Source of the DNA: Actinomycetota bacterium
Lineage (GTDB): Bacteria > Actinomycetota > UBA4738 > HRBIN12
Length of the DNA: 39,939 bases
Direction of reading: 5' to 3'
NCBI GenBank assembly: GCA_005885035.1
Contig: VAXZ01000059.1
Coordinates: 1 to 39,939 of the forward strand
A model generated the notes under the pieces. That model ran no database searches, was not told where the DNA came from, and saw nothing but the letters and a program-made list of their open reading frames with translations. The translations under genes and the position numbers were made by a program. Positions within the stretch are counted from its first letter, which is position 1; each line of letters starts with the position of its first letter. Shown one piece after another: positions 7,218 through 35,797 of the stretch.

Positions 7218-8860
7218 TGAGCGAGAACGCAGACCCCGACGTAGCAACGGGCTCAAGCAGCGAAGCGGTAGCCCGCACAGACGGTGTAGCAGCGGGCTCA
7301 AGCAGCGAAGCGGTAGCCCGCACAGACGAAGTCAGGATCTTCGACACGACCCTGCGCGACGGCGAGCAGGCGCCGGGCATCGCGCTGACCCAACCCGAGA
7401 AGCTCGAGATCGCGGAGCAGCTCGCGCGGCTCAACGTCGATATCATCGAGGCCGGGTTCCCCATCTCGTCGCCCGGCGAGTTCGAAGCCGTCCGCCAGAT
7501 CGCGAGTTCCGTGCGCGGGCCGGTGATCGCGGCACTCGCAAGGACGGCCACCGGCGACGTCGAACGCGCCGCCGAGGCCCTCAAAGGCGCTGAGCGGTGG
7601 CGGATCCACACGTTCATCTCCACATCCGACGTCCAGCGCGAGTCGATGCTGCGGATGAGCCCGCAGCAGGTCCTACAGGCGATCGAGGACAACGTGCGGC
7701 TGGCGAAGAGCTACACGGAGGATGTCGAGTTCTCGGCGCAGGACGCGACCCGGACCGAGCTGGGATTCCTGCTGGAGTGCTTCCGCGTGGCGGTCGCGTG
7801 CGGGGCCACCACGATCAACGTCCCGGACACGGTCGGCTACGCCACGCCCACCGAGTTCGGCGAGTTGGTGCGCATCGTGCGCGAGGCTGTCCCGGACGAC
7901 GTCGTGATCTCGACCCACTGTCACAACGACCTCGGCCTGGCGGTCGCGAACGCGCTGGCGGGGATCGAGAACGGCGCTCGGCAGATCGAGGTCGCCGTGA
8001 ACGGGATCGGCGAGCGCGCGGGGAACTGCTCGCTCGAGGAGGTCGCGATGATCGTCCGCACGCGAGGCGAGCACCTCGGCGTGCGACATGGGCTAAACCT
8101 GAGAGAGATCATGCGAACGTCGCGACTGGTCTCCATGACGACGGGCTACGGCGTCCAGCCGAACAAGGCAGTCGTGGGTTCGAGCGCCTTCGCGCACGAG
8201 AGCGGGATCCATCAGCACGGCGTGCTCGCGAACCGCGCGACCTACGAGATCATGGACCCGCTGGAGATCGGCCTGGAGGGGAACCGGCTCGTCCTCGGCA
8301 AGCACAGCGGCCGGCATGCGTTCGTCGATGCCCTCCAGAAGCTCGGGATCACGTTGGAGGACGTCCAGCTCAACCGCGCGTTCGCCCGGTTCAAGGATCT
8401 GGCGGACCGCAAGATCACCCTCACGGATCACGACCTCGAGGCGATCGTGACGGAAGAGATCGGCAGCGGGAAGGAGGATCTTCTCGTCCTCGAGGCGGTT
8501 CAGGTCGGCGGCGGGACGCACCTGGCTCCGACGGCGACGGTCCGGCTCCGCCGCGGCGACGACCTGATCGAGGAGTCCGCCATGGGGGACGGCATGATCG
8601 ACGCCGTGATGGGGGCGCTCAGCCGTGCGGCCGGGATCGAGGCCCGGCTCGTCGCGTTCAACGTCTCCAGCGTGACCGGCGGATCCGACGCGTTGGGCGA
8701 CGTGGTCGTCCAGTTGGATGTGGACGGACGGCGGGTCACCGGCCGCGGGGTCGCGACCGACGTGGTCGAGGCGAGCGCCCGCGCGTACCTCGCGGCCATC
8801 AACCGCGCGCTCCAGATGCAGGCCGGTAACGACGGACCGCGCGACGAGGGCACGTCTTGA
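7217..8860 (+). CDS. leuA: 2-isopropylmalate synthase
   Basis: Condenses acetyl-CoA with 2-oxoisovalerate in the first leucine-specific step. The DRE-TIM catalytic domain begins at about residue 37 (VRIFDTTLRDGEQAPG) and has the metal-binding HCHNDLGLAVAN and the NGIGERAGN signature. The C-terminal region (about 400-547) is the LeuA regulatory dimer domain (QVGGGTHLAPTATVRL). ATG 7217 overlaps the ilvC stop. The first 36 residues are odd: a 15-residue motif containing GSSSEAVARTD appears twice in tandem, encoded by a 45-bp palindrome-bearing repeat, and is not part of the conserved enzyme. At 547 residues it is slightly longer than the usual LeuA of about 510-530. The stop overlaps the leuB start. 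Confidence 0.95.
   Translation: MSENADPDVATGSSSEAVARTDGVAAGSSSEAVARTDEVRIFDTTLRDGEQAPGIALTQPEKLEIAEQLARLNVDIIEAGFPISSPGEFEAVRQIASSVRGPVIAALARTATGDVERAAEALKGAERWRIHTFISTSDVQRESMLRMSPQQVLQAIEDNVRLAKSYTEDVEFSAQDATRTELGFLLECFRVAVACGATTINVPDTVGYATPTEFGELVRIVREAVPDDVVISTHCHNDLGLAVANALAGIENGARQIEVAVNGIGERAGNCSLEEVAMIVRTRGEHLGVRHGLNLREIMRTSRLVSMTTGYGVQPNKAVVGSSAFAHESGIHQHGVLANRATYEIMDPLEIGLEGNRLVLGKHSGRHAFVDALQKLGITLEDVQLNRAFARFKDLADRKITLTDHDLEAIVTEEIGSGKEDLLVLEAVQVGGGTHLAPTATVRLRRGDDLIEESAMGDGMIDAVMGALSRAAGIEARLVAFNVSSVTGGSDALGDVVVQLDVDGRRVTGRGVATDVVEASARAYLAAINRALQMQAGNDGPRDEGTS
7241..7330 (+). repeat. Tandem 45-bp palindrome-containing repeat inside the 5' end of leuA
   Basis: Two adjacent 45-bp units (7241-7285 and 7286-7330) differ at three positions only. 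Each contains an inverted pair, CGGGCT ... AGCCCG (7248-7253 with 7270-7275 in unit 1, extended to GCGGGCT/AGCCCGC in unit 2), enclosing a 16-nt loop. The unit length is a multiple of three, so the insertion keeps the frame. It has the look of a small interspersed palindrome, like a REP-type element, captured in a coding region. I saw no further copy in the window. Confidence 0.7.
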
Positions 8861-32088: not shown

Positions 32089-32745
32089 TCAAGCGGGCCG
32101 CGACCGGTCCTCGATCTCCCACGCATGATCGAGCACGTGCCAGGCGGATCGCCGGATGAAGTAACGCGGTGACCACAGCGCGCCCGAACGCGGGGTCCGT
32201 TGGGAAGGTTCCCCTCGTGCACGGGATGCGAACGCCTCCAGGGTCGCGGCCCTCGTGTCCCCTTCGGCCGGCCGTGCTCCGAGCTTCGCCCGGTACGCGC
32301 TCTCCGCGTCCGCGACGTGCGCCACGATCTTGGCGAGCTGGCGACCGCCGCCCCGCGGTCCCGTGCGGAGCTCGTGGCCCTCGGCGGCGGTCGCCGCCCG
32401 ATCGAGCGCCGCCCAGCAGGCCTCCATGATCGTGGCGAGCCGCTTCGCCTCCTCCGCGTCGATCGGGCGGTCGTCCGCGTGCGGCGCGATCGCGGGTGCG
32501 CCGAAATCCGTCGTCGCGTTGCCCGTGCGTCGCTCGACGACGCGGAGGCCGCCGGCGTCGGGGGGTGCGACGAACCCCAGCTTGCGCCGGCCTAAGGCCT
32601 TGGCGTACCTCGGGCCGTACGCGAGGAGCGCCTCGAGCGCGGCCTCCTCCGTGCGGCCGCTCCGGCACCAACCGGGCCACTCGATCGCGCCCGCGAAGAC
32701 CCGCTTCGATCCCCGTTCGATGAAGACGTCGTCCGGAACCGCCAT
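32089..32745 (-). CDS. DinB-like protein with HicB-like N-terminus
   Basis: A 218-residue soluble protein. Residues about 1-45 (RVFAGAIEWPGWCRSGRTEEAALEALLAY) look like the small alpha/beta HicB-type domain. The C-terminal half is helical and ends SPRYFIRRSAWHVLDHAWEIEDR, resembling the last helix of DinB/YfiT-type four-helix proteins with His residues able to bind metal; an earlier AKIVAHVADAESAYRAKLG helix supports this. Such proteins often act as thiol-dependent transferases, but the substrate is unknown. A 119-bp segment of this gene (32456-32574) occurs again in inverted orientation at 33999-34117. It may head the pilT gene cluster, 124 bp upstream of pilT. Confidence 0.7.
   Translation of the reverse strand: MAVPDDVFIERGSKRVFAGAIEWPGWCRSGRTEEAALEALLAYGPRYAKALGRRKLGFVAPPDAGGLRVVERRTGNATTDFGAPAIAPHADDRPIDAEEAKRLATIMEACWAALDRAATAAEGHELRTGPRGGGRQLAKIVAHVADAESAYRAKLGARPAEGDTRAATLEAFASRARGEPSQRTPRSGALWSPRYFIRRSAWHVLDHAWEIEDRSRPA
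32456..32574 (-). repeat. 119-bp inverted repeat, source copy inside the DinB-like gene
   Basis: This segment is in frame and coding in the DinB-like gene (FVAPPDAGG ... DDRPIDA). Its reverse complement is found base for base at 33999-34117, where it interrupts the sulfatase gene. I compared the two copies over their whole length and found no mismatch. Confidence 0.9.
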
Positions 32746-32776
32746 CCTCCGTCCTCCCGCGTGGGTCGGGTCCGAG

Positions 32777-33406
32777 TCACCCCGGGGTTGACCGCCGAGA
32801 GCGGTCGCGCCCGAAGACCGAGCTCTCGATCACCCAGAACAGCGCGAACGCGCCGAACCCGACGGCGCCGGCGACGGGATCGATCGCGGCGACCACGGTG
32901 AGGGCGAGGTACGTCCACGGGCCGAACACGAACGTCTTCGAGATGCCACGGACCGTCAGCGGATCCGCGTCGGAGCGGAGCAGCCGGCCTCCTCGTGCCG
33001 CGTAGAACCAAACCGCGTTGAACAGCACCGCGGTGAGCGTGAGCGTGATCCCGTAGGCGACGGTGGCCGCCCTGGCCCCCTCGCCGCGGATACCCTCGGC
33101 GACGAGCCGCGTCGGGAACGGGATGAACGCGACGATCATCAGGAAGCCGACCGTGATCATCAGGAACGTTCGGTCGGCGTGATCGATCTGGTCCATCACG
33201 GTGTGGTGATTGACCCAGATGATCCCGATCGTCAGGAAGCTCACGATGTACGCCACGTACGACGGCCACGAACACACCAGCTGGCGCCGGAGCGTTGCGC
33301 CCGCAGGCGCACACGATCCGAAATGCCCGTCGACGCTGAGGATGAGGAGCGTCGCCGCGATCGCGAAGACGCCGTCCGCGAAGGTCTCGAGCCTCCCCGT
33401 GTTCAT
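32777..33406 (-). CDS. TMEM175-family (DUF1211) potassium channel-like membrane protein
   Basis: A 209-residue integral membrane protein. The first helix carries the family's filter motif as Phe9-Ala10-Asp11 in RLETFADGVFAIAATLLIL (FSD in most relatives). Five further hydrophobic helices follow, including YIVSFLTIGIIWVNHHTVMDQI and FLMITVGFLMIVAFIPFPTRLV, both characteristic of the family. Bacterial TMEM175 proteins are tetrameric potassium-permeable channels. ATG 33406 overlaps the stop of the nitroreductase gene (ATGA), so the pair form one operon. The frame upstream of this ATG is not conserved. The physiological role here is unknown. Confidence 0.88.
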   Translation of the reverse strand: MNTGRLETFADGVFAIAATLLILSVDGHFGSCAPAGATLRRQLVCSWPSYVAYIVSFLTIGIIWVNHHTVMDQIDHADRTFLMITVGFLMIVAFIPFPTRLVAEGIRGEGARAATVAYGITLTLTAVLFNAVWFYAARGGRLLRSDADPLTVRGISKTFVFGPWTYLALTVVAAIDPVAGAVGFGAFALFWVIESSVFGRDRSRRSTPG

Positions 33407-33834
33407 CCGGTCTCGGCCTGGTCGAGCGGCTCCAACACGATCACGGGGATCGTCCGCGGCGTCTTCTTCGGGTACTCCGCGAACGCCGGCCACCGCTCGG
33501 CTTGCCGGTCGTAGAGCTCGCTCCGTTCGGGCTCCGCGGTCACGCGTGCCTTCGCCGGCAACCGCCGGTCGCCCACCTCGATCGTGACGTCGGGGTTGGC
33601 CGAGACGTTGTAGTACCAGTCGGGGTTGGTGGGCGCTCCACCTTTGGTCGCGAAGACGACGAAACGCTCGCCGTCGGCGAGGTAGGCGAGCGGTGTCGTT
33701 CGCTCCACACCCGTCCTTGCTCCTCGCATCGTAAGGAGCAGCAGCGGACGGCCCTCGAAGTACCCGCCGACCTTCCCGTGGTTCGTCCGGAACTCCTGGA
33801 TGATCCCTGCGTTCCGATCCTCTCGCTCGGTCAT
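33403..33834 (-). CDS. Deazaflavin (F420)-dependent nitroreductase-family protein
   Basis: A 143-residue split-barrel protein of the Ddn family. Visible features are GRPLLLLTMRGARTGVERTTPLAYLADGERFVVFATKGGAPTNPDWYYNV (residues about 28-78), where the Arg/Lys and Gly-rich turns bind F420, and the terminal RTIPVIVLEPL strand. Mycobacterial relatives reduce quinones or nitroaromatics with reduced F420. ATG 33834 has GAGGAGGG directly upstream. It is the first gene of a two-gene operon with the TMEM175-like channel. The presence of this family suggests that the host makes F420, common in actinobacteria. Confidence 0.9.
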   Translation of the reverse strand: MTEREDRNAGIIQEFRTNHGKVGGYFEGRPLLLLTMRGARTGVERTTPLAYLADGERFVVFATKGGAPTNPDWYYNVSANPDVTIEVGDRRLPAKARVTAEPERSELYDRQAERWPAFAEYPKKTPRTIPVIVLEPLDQAETG

Positions 33835-33972
33835 GCTCCCTCCTCGGCGGTCGGGTACGACAGCCTGCTGAACCAGCTGAACGTAACCCGTGTTCCCGTC
33901 AACGGGGTCCCCGGCCCGCGCATGATCCTCTGACGGGCTGAGTGGATGGTGGATCCCTACTGATAGGGCCAA

Positions 33973-35310
33973 TCATTCGGGTAGATGCCAGTGGCCGATT
34001 CGTCGCACCCCCCGACGCCGGCGGCCTCCGCGTCGTCGAGCGACGCACGGGCAACGCGACGACGGATTTCGGCGCACCCGCGATCGCGCCGCACGCGGAC
34101 GACCGCCCGATCGACGCTGGTACCAGTGTTCGATAACGAACTCGGATCTCGTGGCAGAACCGAGCATCTCCAGTCCCTCAGGAGCGGACGGCCTGCTCGG
34201 CGAGGTTGTGACACCGGCCATCCCTTCCAAGGTGGGAAGGAGGTCGATGTTCAGAACGATCCGCGGGTCTGTTCCCGCCGACAACGGGCTGGCCAGGTTC
34301 CTCCCGACGAGCCTCATGGGGATGCGAAGGTCCTCGTTGTAGGGGATCATCTTGTTGCTCCATCTGTGCTCGCCCCAAGAGAATCCGTTGTCGGACATGA
34401 ACGCCACGATCGTGTTGTCTGGTAGCAGGTTCCAAAGCTGACCGATGGAGCGGTCGACGCCGTAGGTGGCGTTCAACTGAGCGGCGTGGAACTGGTTGAT
34501 GGTCTTGACGTCGCTTGGATACCACGGACGGTCCTGGATGTAGTGCGGGTCCACGGCAGAAGAAGCACCGAACGATGGCGGCTGAACGTACCCCGCGCTG
34601 TTGAAGCGATCCACATCGCGAGGGTCCGCGGTGGCTGGACCATGCGGAGCCGTCGCAGCGTAGTACAGGAAGAACGGGTCAGCTTGGTTGGCTTGGAGGA
34701 AGGTCGATGCCCTCGCCGTGAGCACACGAGTGATGTAATCGGCCTTGGTGGTCCCGAAGTAACGGTTGTGGATAGGACCCCCGAAGTTCGAGGCAGCCCA
34801 ATAGTGGTAGTACGCACCGGTCGGAACGGAGAACCAGCGGTCCCAGCCTGGTGGGATGTAGCGTGAGGTCCTTGCGTTGTACCCATTGAGATACTTGCCC
34901 ACCAGTGCGGTCCTGTACCCAGCCTGGTGCATGTCAACAGCGATGGTCGTCGTGTCATTGATGGGGCTTATGCCGTTGCCGTCAGGAGCCGGGGTGAATG
35001 CAGGGAAGCCACCGTACTGACCACCATTGCCGTAGACCCCGGTCGTGTGCGAGTAATCGCCGGTCAACGTAGAGGTCCTGCTCGGACAGCAGAGCGTGTT
35101 CGGGACGAACGAATTCGTGAAGGTAACCGATGGGTTGTTGGCAAGGATCGATGACAGTTGAGGCATATACCGGGCGGTCACGGAGTCCCAGCGCTGGTCG
35201 TCGGTGATGATGATGACGACGTTGGGCCGTGACTCCGCAGCCTGAGCCACGGGGTGTGAGATCGCGACGAGTGAAGCCACCGCTAGCGCAAGAGACAGCG
35301 ATCTCTTCAC
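33973..35310 (-). CDS. Exported arylsulfatase-type sulfatase with disrupted C-terminus
   Basis: Type I sulfatase. GTG 35310 follows AGGAGGG and opens a signal peptide (KRSLSLALAVASLVAISHPVAQAA). Metal site residues Asp37-Asp38 (IIITDDQR) and AFMSDNGFSWGEH are present. The formylglycine motif CxPxR is Cys74-Cys-Pro-Ser-Arg (NTLCCPSRTSTLTG), so a maturase elsewhere would be needed. The authentic protein ends at about EHWY (34120); from 34117 the frame reads through the 119-bp inverted copy of the DinB-like gene and stops at 33973. About 80 or more family residues after EHWYQ are therefore lacking. GC content (about 57-62% in sampled lines) is lower than in neighbours, suggesting horizontal acquisition. 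It may be non-functional. Confidence 0.8.
   Translation of the reverse strand: MKRSLSLALAVASLVAISHPVAQAAESRPNVVIIITDDQRWDSVTARYMPQLSSILANNPSVTFTNSFVPNTLCCPSRTSTLTGDYSHTTGVYGNGGQYGGFPAFTPAPDGNGISPINDTTTIAVDMHQAGYRTALVGKYLNGYNARTSRYIPPGWDRWFSVPTGAYYHYWAASNFGGPIHNRYFGTTKADYITRVLTARASTFLQANQADPFFLYYAATAPHGPATADPRDVDRFNSAGYVQPPSFGASSAVDPHYIQDRPWYPSDVKTINQFHAAQLNATYGVDRSIGQLWNLLPDNTIVAFMSDNGFSWGEHRWSNKMIPYNEDLRIPMRLVGRNLASPLSAGTDPRIVLNIDLLPTLEGMAGVTTSPSRPSAPEGLEMLGSATRSEFVIEHWYQRRSGGRPRAARSRVRRNPSSRCPCVARRRGGRRRRGVRRIGHWHLPE
33999..34117 (+). repeat. 119-bp inverted repeat, inserted copy in the sulfatase 3' end
   Basis: Exact reverse complement of 32456-32574. The left junction is ...GTGGCCGA|TTCGTCGC and the right junction is ATCGACGC|TGGTACCAG. 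No target-site duplication or terminal repeat is visible, so this is not a transposon insertion. On the minus strand it replaces or interrupts the sulfatase coding sequence after the EHWY codons. Confidence 0.9.
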
Positions 35311-35797
35311 ACGATTCCCTCCTACGGATGCGTGATGCGGAACTGCGGGCACGGGCAGTCTGTGAGCCTCGATCCACCTCTCTTCCTACGCTGCTACCCC
35401 AGACGAAGGCTGCGAGAACCAAGGGGCACGATGCGCTGACGTCACCTGGGGTGTTGTTGAGAAGATGAACTCAACGCTACTCCCTGCGAAGGTGGTCTGC
35501 GGCCAAGTGGCGGACAGAAGACTTCGCGGTGACGGCGATATCCAAGGTGGGGTAGCAGCGCCGGTACGGAACCCGCCCGGCCGATCTCAGCTCGTCTTCC
35601 GACGTTGCAGCGCGCGACTTCGCTCGAGCCGAACCACCGCTTGTGGCCGATATCGGTGCTGATCGACAGCGGCGCAAAAGGATGCACGTGACCCGGATCG
35701 GTGAAGGCGCGACATGACAGAACCGTCACCCCGAGGTGGTTTCCGGGGCCCCTACCCAGGGTGGTGCGACCTGGCTACTCTGGGGCCGAGGAGGACC
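35311..35797. other. Intergenic region of 487 bp, no gene recognised
   Basis: It lies between the divergent sulfatase and response regulator genes. Short frames exist but none looks coding. A 10-bp perfect palindrome CCGATATCGG (35647-35656) could be an operator or chance. TACTCT at about 35775-35780 is a possible -10 box for the response regulator. An ATG at 35714 with GAAGG upstream extends that gene by 28 codons of non-conserved sequence. Confidence 0.4.

Follow-up and report, generated by a model that had tools for sequence, protein, structure and literature searches.

A sulfatase gene of an uncultured actinobacterium carries an exact inverted copy of a nearby DinB-like gene segment, consistent with a recent template switch

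Several described processes put a copy of sequence from elsewhere into a target and have features in common with the locus reported here. Acinetobacter baylyi reportedly undergoes short-patch double illegitimate recombination, in which a short target segment is replaced by an ectopic copy while the donor stays in place, as it does in the present case. Templated insertion by FoSTeS/MMBIR likewise involves a switch without long homology, the copying of a nearby template and then a return. In the four-point template switch, following the model of Loytynoja and Goldman, a nearby inverted copy replaces the target, the flanks stay colinear and the source is unchanged, all of which is found here too; point orders 1-4-3-2 and 3-2-1-4 are the majority patterns that yield single inverted repeats (PMC7954356). 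Inverted chimeras formed during MDA also join nearby sequences in the inverted sense (PMC3842359).

The window, meaning the whole 39,939-nt stretch of DNA that was analysed, corresponds to contig C52 of a draft genome (G000) of 2.5 Mb, which comprises 166 contigs and is 86.8% complete. A repeat search of the window recovered the exact 119-nt inverted duplication, about 1.4 kb apart, that an initial annotation made from the sequence had reported. The two arms are perfect reverse complements over 119/119 nt, with 1424 nt between them. The repeat is maximal, the bases bordering both arms being different on either side, and no terminal repeats or target duplication were found at the borders, as the same annotation had claimed. 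No other perfect inverted pair of at least 25 nt exists in the window, where four further pairs are 29-36 nt long with 76-79% matches. By a simple base-frequency estimate about 1e-59 pairs of this length are expected by chance, effectively zero. When the whole assembly was searched, the 119-mer was found at two places only, both in the window. We also scanned 1.29 Mb of G000 for inverted pairs (123 of the 166 contigs were read, about a dozen short ones being all N). Across this sequence no other perfect non-palindromic inverted pair within one contig reaches 32 nt; the other seven self-matches of at least 35 nt are 74-93% identical. A transposable element or insertion sequence was considered and rejected, given the two copies in the genome, a source within host coding sequence that the congeners share, and the bare borders. 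Elsewhere in the window, at 7241-7328, a 43-nt unit is present as two direct copies, 45 nt start to start and 98% identical.

One arm falls in frame within a DinB-like open reading frame, in agreement with the initial annotation; the DinB superfamily is distinct from DNA polymerase IV. The other arm lies in a gene whose product contains the motif LCCPSR, which fits the C-x-P-x-R formylglycine signature of the sulfatase family. An Rfam scan of the region gave no match, and a tRNA scan of the window found none.

Table 1 Features of the locus, in window coordinates.
Feature	Position	Strand	Remarks
DinB-like gene, intact, 218 aa	32089..32745	-	Pfam DinB_2, E=7e-4, under the curated cut-off
Source segment, 119 nt	32456..32574	-	In-frame coding in the DinB-like gene; sole copy in G001 and G002
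TMEM175-type channel gene, between the arms	32777..33406	-	Pfam E=3.8e-24
F420H2-dependent quinone reductase gene, between the arms	33403..33834	-	Pfam E=1.7e-38
Sulfatase-bearing block	33899..35710		Absent in G002 (24 bp instead); other gene in this slot in G001
Surviving true 3' end of the sulfatase gene, ATGIYPNDWPYQ and stop, in a different frame from the part upstream	33957..33998	-	Matches C53 tail ...NAIYPNDWPY
Present sulfatase frame, inferred GTG start at 35310	33973..35310	-	Pfam Sulfatase E=3e-41; ORF list
Derived inverted copy, within the sulfatase gene	33999..34117	+	100% identical reverse complement; no counterpart here in congeners

The sulfatase frame is authentic to about position 34118, after which the copy is read through out of frame until the stop at 33973. 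The copy begins directly after the motif FVIEHWYQ, the point at which the initial annotation had expected the conserved C-terminus to continue. Two other sulfatases of G000 were available, one on C6 (66% protein identity, cut by the contig end) and a decayed copy on C53. Comparison with the 3' end of a related sulfatase, which the annotation had proposed, was made against the C53 paralog and located its tail beyond the copy. In the C-terminal region C53 reads ...LEHWFASLVPPTYCGVRSLDWMYVRYNRYEEPVKEGLYYEVADPFEMNNLAVTDPSNPEMQVMRDRAATLCQTDGNAIYPNDWPY; in the window, ...IEHWYQ is followed by the copy and, in another frame, by ATGIYPNDWPYQ and a stop. Eight residues (IYPNDWPY) are exactly shared by C53 and the window tail, their codons differing synonymously at several places. 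Because this tail is found beyond the copy, both of its flanks are sulfatase, and the gene's own last codons (IYPNDWPYQ and stop) survive downstream, out of frame. The distance from the EHW[FY] motif to the tail is 213 nt in C53 and 130 nt in the window, and the net difference of -83 nt disrupts the reading frame. Judged by this alignment, the copy replaces an internal stretch of the sulfatase, about 200 nt going by the paralog, with the original order kept on both sides.

Part of the lost stretch is the segment PTYCGVR..YVRY...LYD...DP..L.N, conserved in most full-length homologs read from the order and also aligned in the solved N-acetylglucosamine-6-sulfatase 5g2v. With the last conserved C-terminal portion missing, about 70 residues if the paralog is a guide, and the remaining 3' end lying in another frame, the enzyme has probably lost its function. 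The initial annotation had described a truncated secreted enzyme; the C-terminus is indeed damaged, but the loss is not one-sided, the true 3' end persisting beyond the copy. No intact ortholog of the sulfatase was found at this site, only paralogs. Among 397 genomes of the phylum, searched for a sulfatase close enough to reveal the ancestral junctions, none had one closer than the genome's own paralog (66% amino acid identity; G002, 53%), and both junctions gave no match in IMG/VR. The C53 paralog (G000:C53:1791-2540) itself has a large internal deletion, and within about 100 nt after the paralog there is a tRNA-gene-like end (GGATTTGAACCCGCACGCCCCGTAAGGGGC), possibly an integration site.

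The comparison set consisted of two genomes of the same genus, G001 and G002, at about 88-92% nucleotide identity. Both have the DinB-like gene with a single copy of the segment, 91% identical to that of the window in G001 (11/119 differences) and 90% identical in G002. Because the congeners carry the DinB-like copy only, the comparison identifies the DinB-like gene as the source and the sulfatase copy as derived, so that the direction of copying reads from DinB to sulfatase. The two copies in the window differ at 0/119 sites, compared with 11/119 between the window and G001. At 9% divergence the chance of zero differences is about 1e-5, and divergence between the copies has a 95% upper bound of about 2.5%. 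With the congener source differing at about 9% of sites and the window copies at none, the copying postdates the divergence of the species, and the claim of a recent event is supported.

The same congeners bear on the possibility that the repeat is an invertible switch, its 119-nt arms letting the 1.4 kb between them, with the channel and reductase genes, flip by homologous recombination. Long perfect inverted arms make a RecA-dependent inversion possible in principle. However, the congeners lack the second arm and have unchanged gene order and orientation, so there is no conserved arm pair, and flipping would move no obvious promoter. We regard such a switch as extremely unlikely.

In G002 the sequence upstream of the reductase runs straight into a response regulator gene, with 24 bp standing in for the sulfatase-bearing block. 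In G001 an unrelated gene, repetitive and beta-helix-like by eye, fills the slot, and the contig ends inside that gene. Third-position GC is 0.76 in the sulfatase, 0.86-0.91 in its neighbours and 0.89 in the C6 paralog; the low value fits a recent foreign origin. Most simply, the block is an acquisition by this lineage. The intergenic slot bounded by the F420 reductase and response regulator genes (window 33899-35710; G002:C29:24333-24358; G001:C191:1226-3072) thus has different cargo in the three congeners: the sulfatase, the beta-helix-like gene (by eye) and nothing.

A four-point template switch is recognised by this combination: an inverted exact copy of nearby sequence, both target flanks retained, and a piece of the target missing. 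Here the switch points follow the order 1-4-3-2 or 3-2-1-4, depending on the direction of replication. An exact reverse complement lies nearby, sulfatase is present on both flanks, and the source is single-copy in G001 and G002. We therefore favour a recent in vivo template-switch mutation, to which we give a probability of roughly 60%. Under this reading, synthesis across the sulfatase would leave its template at about 34118 (or at 33998 if travelling the other way), use the opposite strand of the DinB-like gene, 1.4 kb off, as template for 119 nt, and rejoin the sulfatase about 200 nt beyond the point of departure. The product would be an inverted copy swapped in for an internal sulfatase segment, with the source left intact. 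Near the respective junctions C53 has GCGTCG and CGACG, as the copy does, a possible microhomology of the kind expected for MMBIR/FoSTeS, although C53 is a paralog and may differ from the ancestral sequence of the window. Fork template switching had been among the proposals of the initial annotation, and the two-ended inverted copy with sulfatase on both sides fits it.

The same end product, a short ectopic copy with the source retained and the target segment gone, would also arise from break repair. In this scenario about 200 nt of the sulfatase disappeared at a double-strand break, and repair filled the hole with a copy of single-stranded DNA from close by, through end joining or through the double illegitimate recombination that reportedly produces short-patch replacements in Acinetobacter. 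Ku is encoded in G000 (two matches) and in 25 of the 26 genomes searched, both congeners included, so end joining is probably available. Nothing in the sequence separates the two processes, but a close inverted source is the classic geometry of template switching, and we consider break repair rather unlikely.

A template switch in vivo also presupposes that the event is present in the living genome, as it appears to be. It might instead be a chimera of MDA or library preparation, or a faulty gap closure in a repeat region shared by the sulfatase paralogs. The draft genome has N gaps, and the paralogous sulfatases make the stretch hard to assemble: C6 ends within the matching C-terminal region, where C6 and C53 are 89% identical. 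An artefact would likewise leave zero differences between the copies. MEGAHIT default k values include 119, with which the length of the repeat coincides. Contig-end overlaps, however, span 82-669 bp at 90-100% identity, and we rejected a k=119 assembler artefact because exact overlaps vary in length with none constant at 119. To build the sequence, an assembler would presumably need both junctions in the reads, and the pair is single of its kind in the 1.29 Mb scanned. End overlaps at 90-99% identity (C13/C44, C6/C87, C19/C66 and C11/C90 of G000) point to a mixed population as in a metagenome, which makes a single-cell MDA chimera less likely. When MDA was tested on a bacterium whose genome was already known, shorter contigs, and not misassembled ones, were the main consequence of amplification bias and inverted pairs (PMC3842359). 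The MDA chimera that the initial annotation had offered as an alternative is weakened by the lone pair, the population-like contig ends and this test, and it is kept within an artefact explanation that we judge unlikely overall. Contigs C116/C123 also overlap at their ends and are listed with C13/C44, C6/C87 and C19/C66 at 90-96%, which suggests that the bin mixes strains. At G000:C33:1827-3511 there is a near-perfect tandem duplication of 850 bp (99.5%), either recent or an assembly error.

If real, the locus is an unusually clean natural bacterial case, with source, direction, both junctions and recency all readable from sequence, because the paralog keeps the lost tail and the congeners keep the source. 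Events of this type readily pass for a deletion accompanied by some unexplained sequence. A real event would also mean that one step can disable the gene of a recently acquired secreted enzyme. It is a highly speculative extension, and in our view very improbable, that two-ended inverted templated replacements of about 100 nt at kilobase range are a regular, overlooked form of gene inactivation in these bacteria that helps to discard recently acquired genes.

The locus is a clean instance of a mutation type already described and not a new system. Compared with four-point template switches, the source lies 1.4 kb off and the copy is 119 nt long, both probably above the typical size for short-range switches, and the present case comes from the draft genome of an uncultured bacterium. 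Relative to FoSTeS/MMBIR, the event is very small and consists of one excursion. From the short-patch events reported in Acinetobacter baylyi the present case differs in that the donor is close and inverted and the copy seems long for that process. An inverted MDA chimera usually has one junction, whereas the present case has two, returning to the original strand and order.
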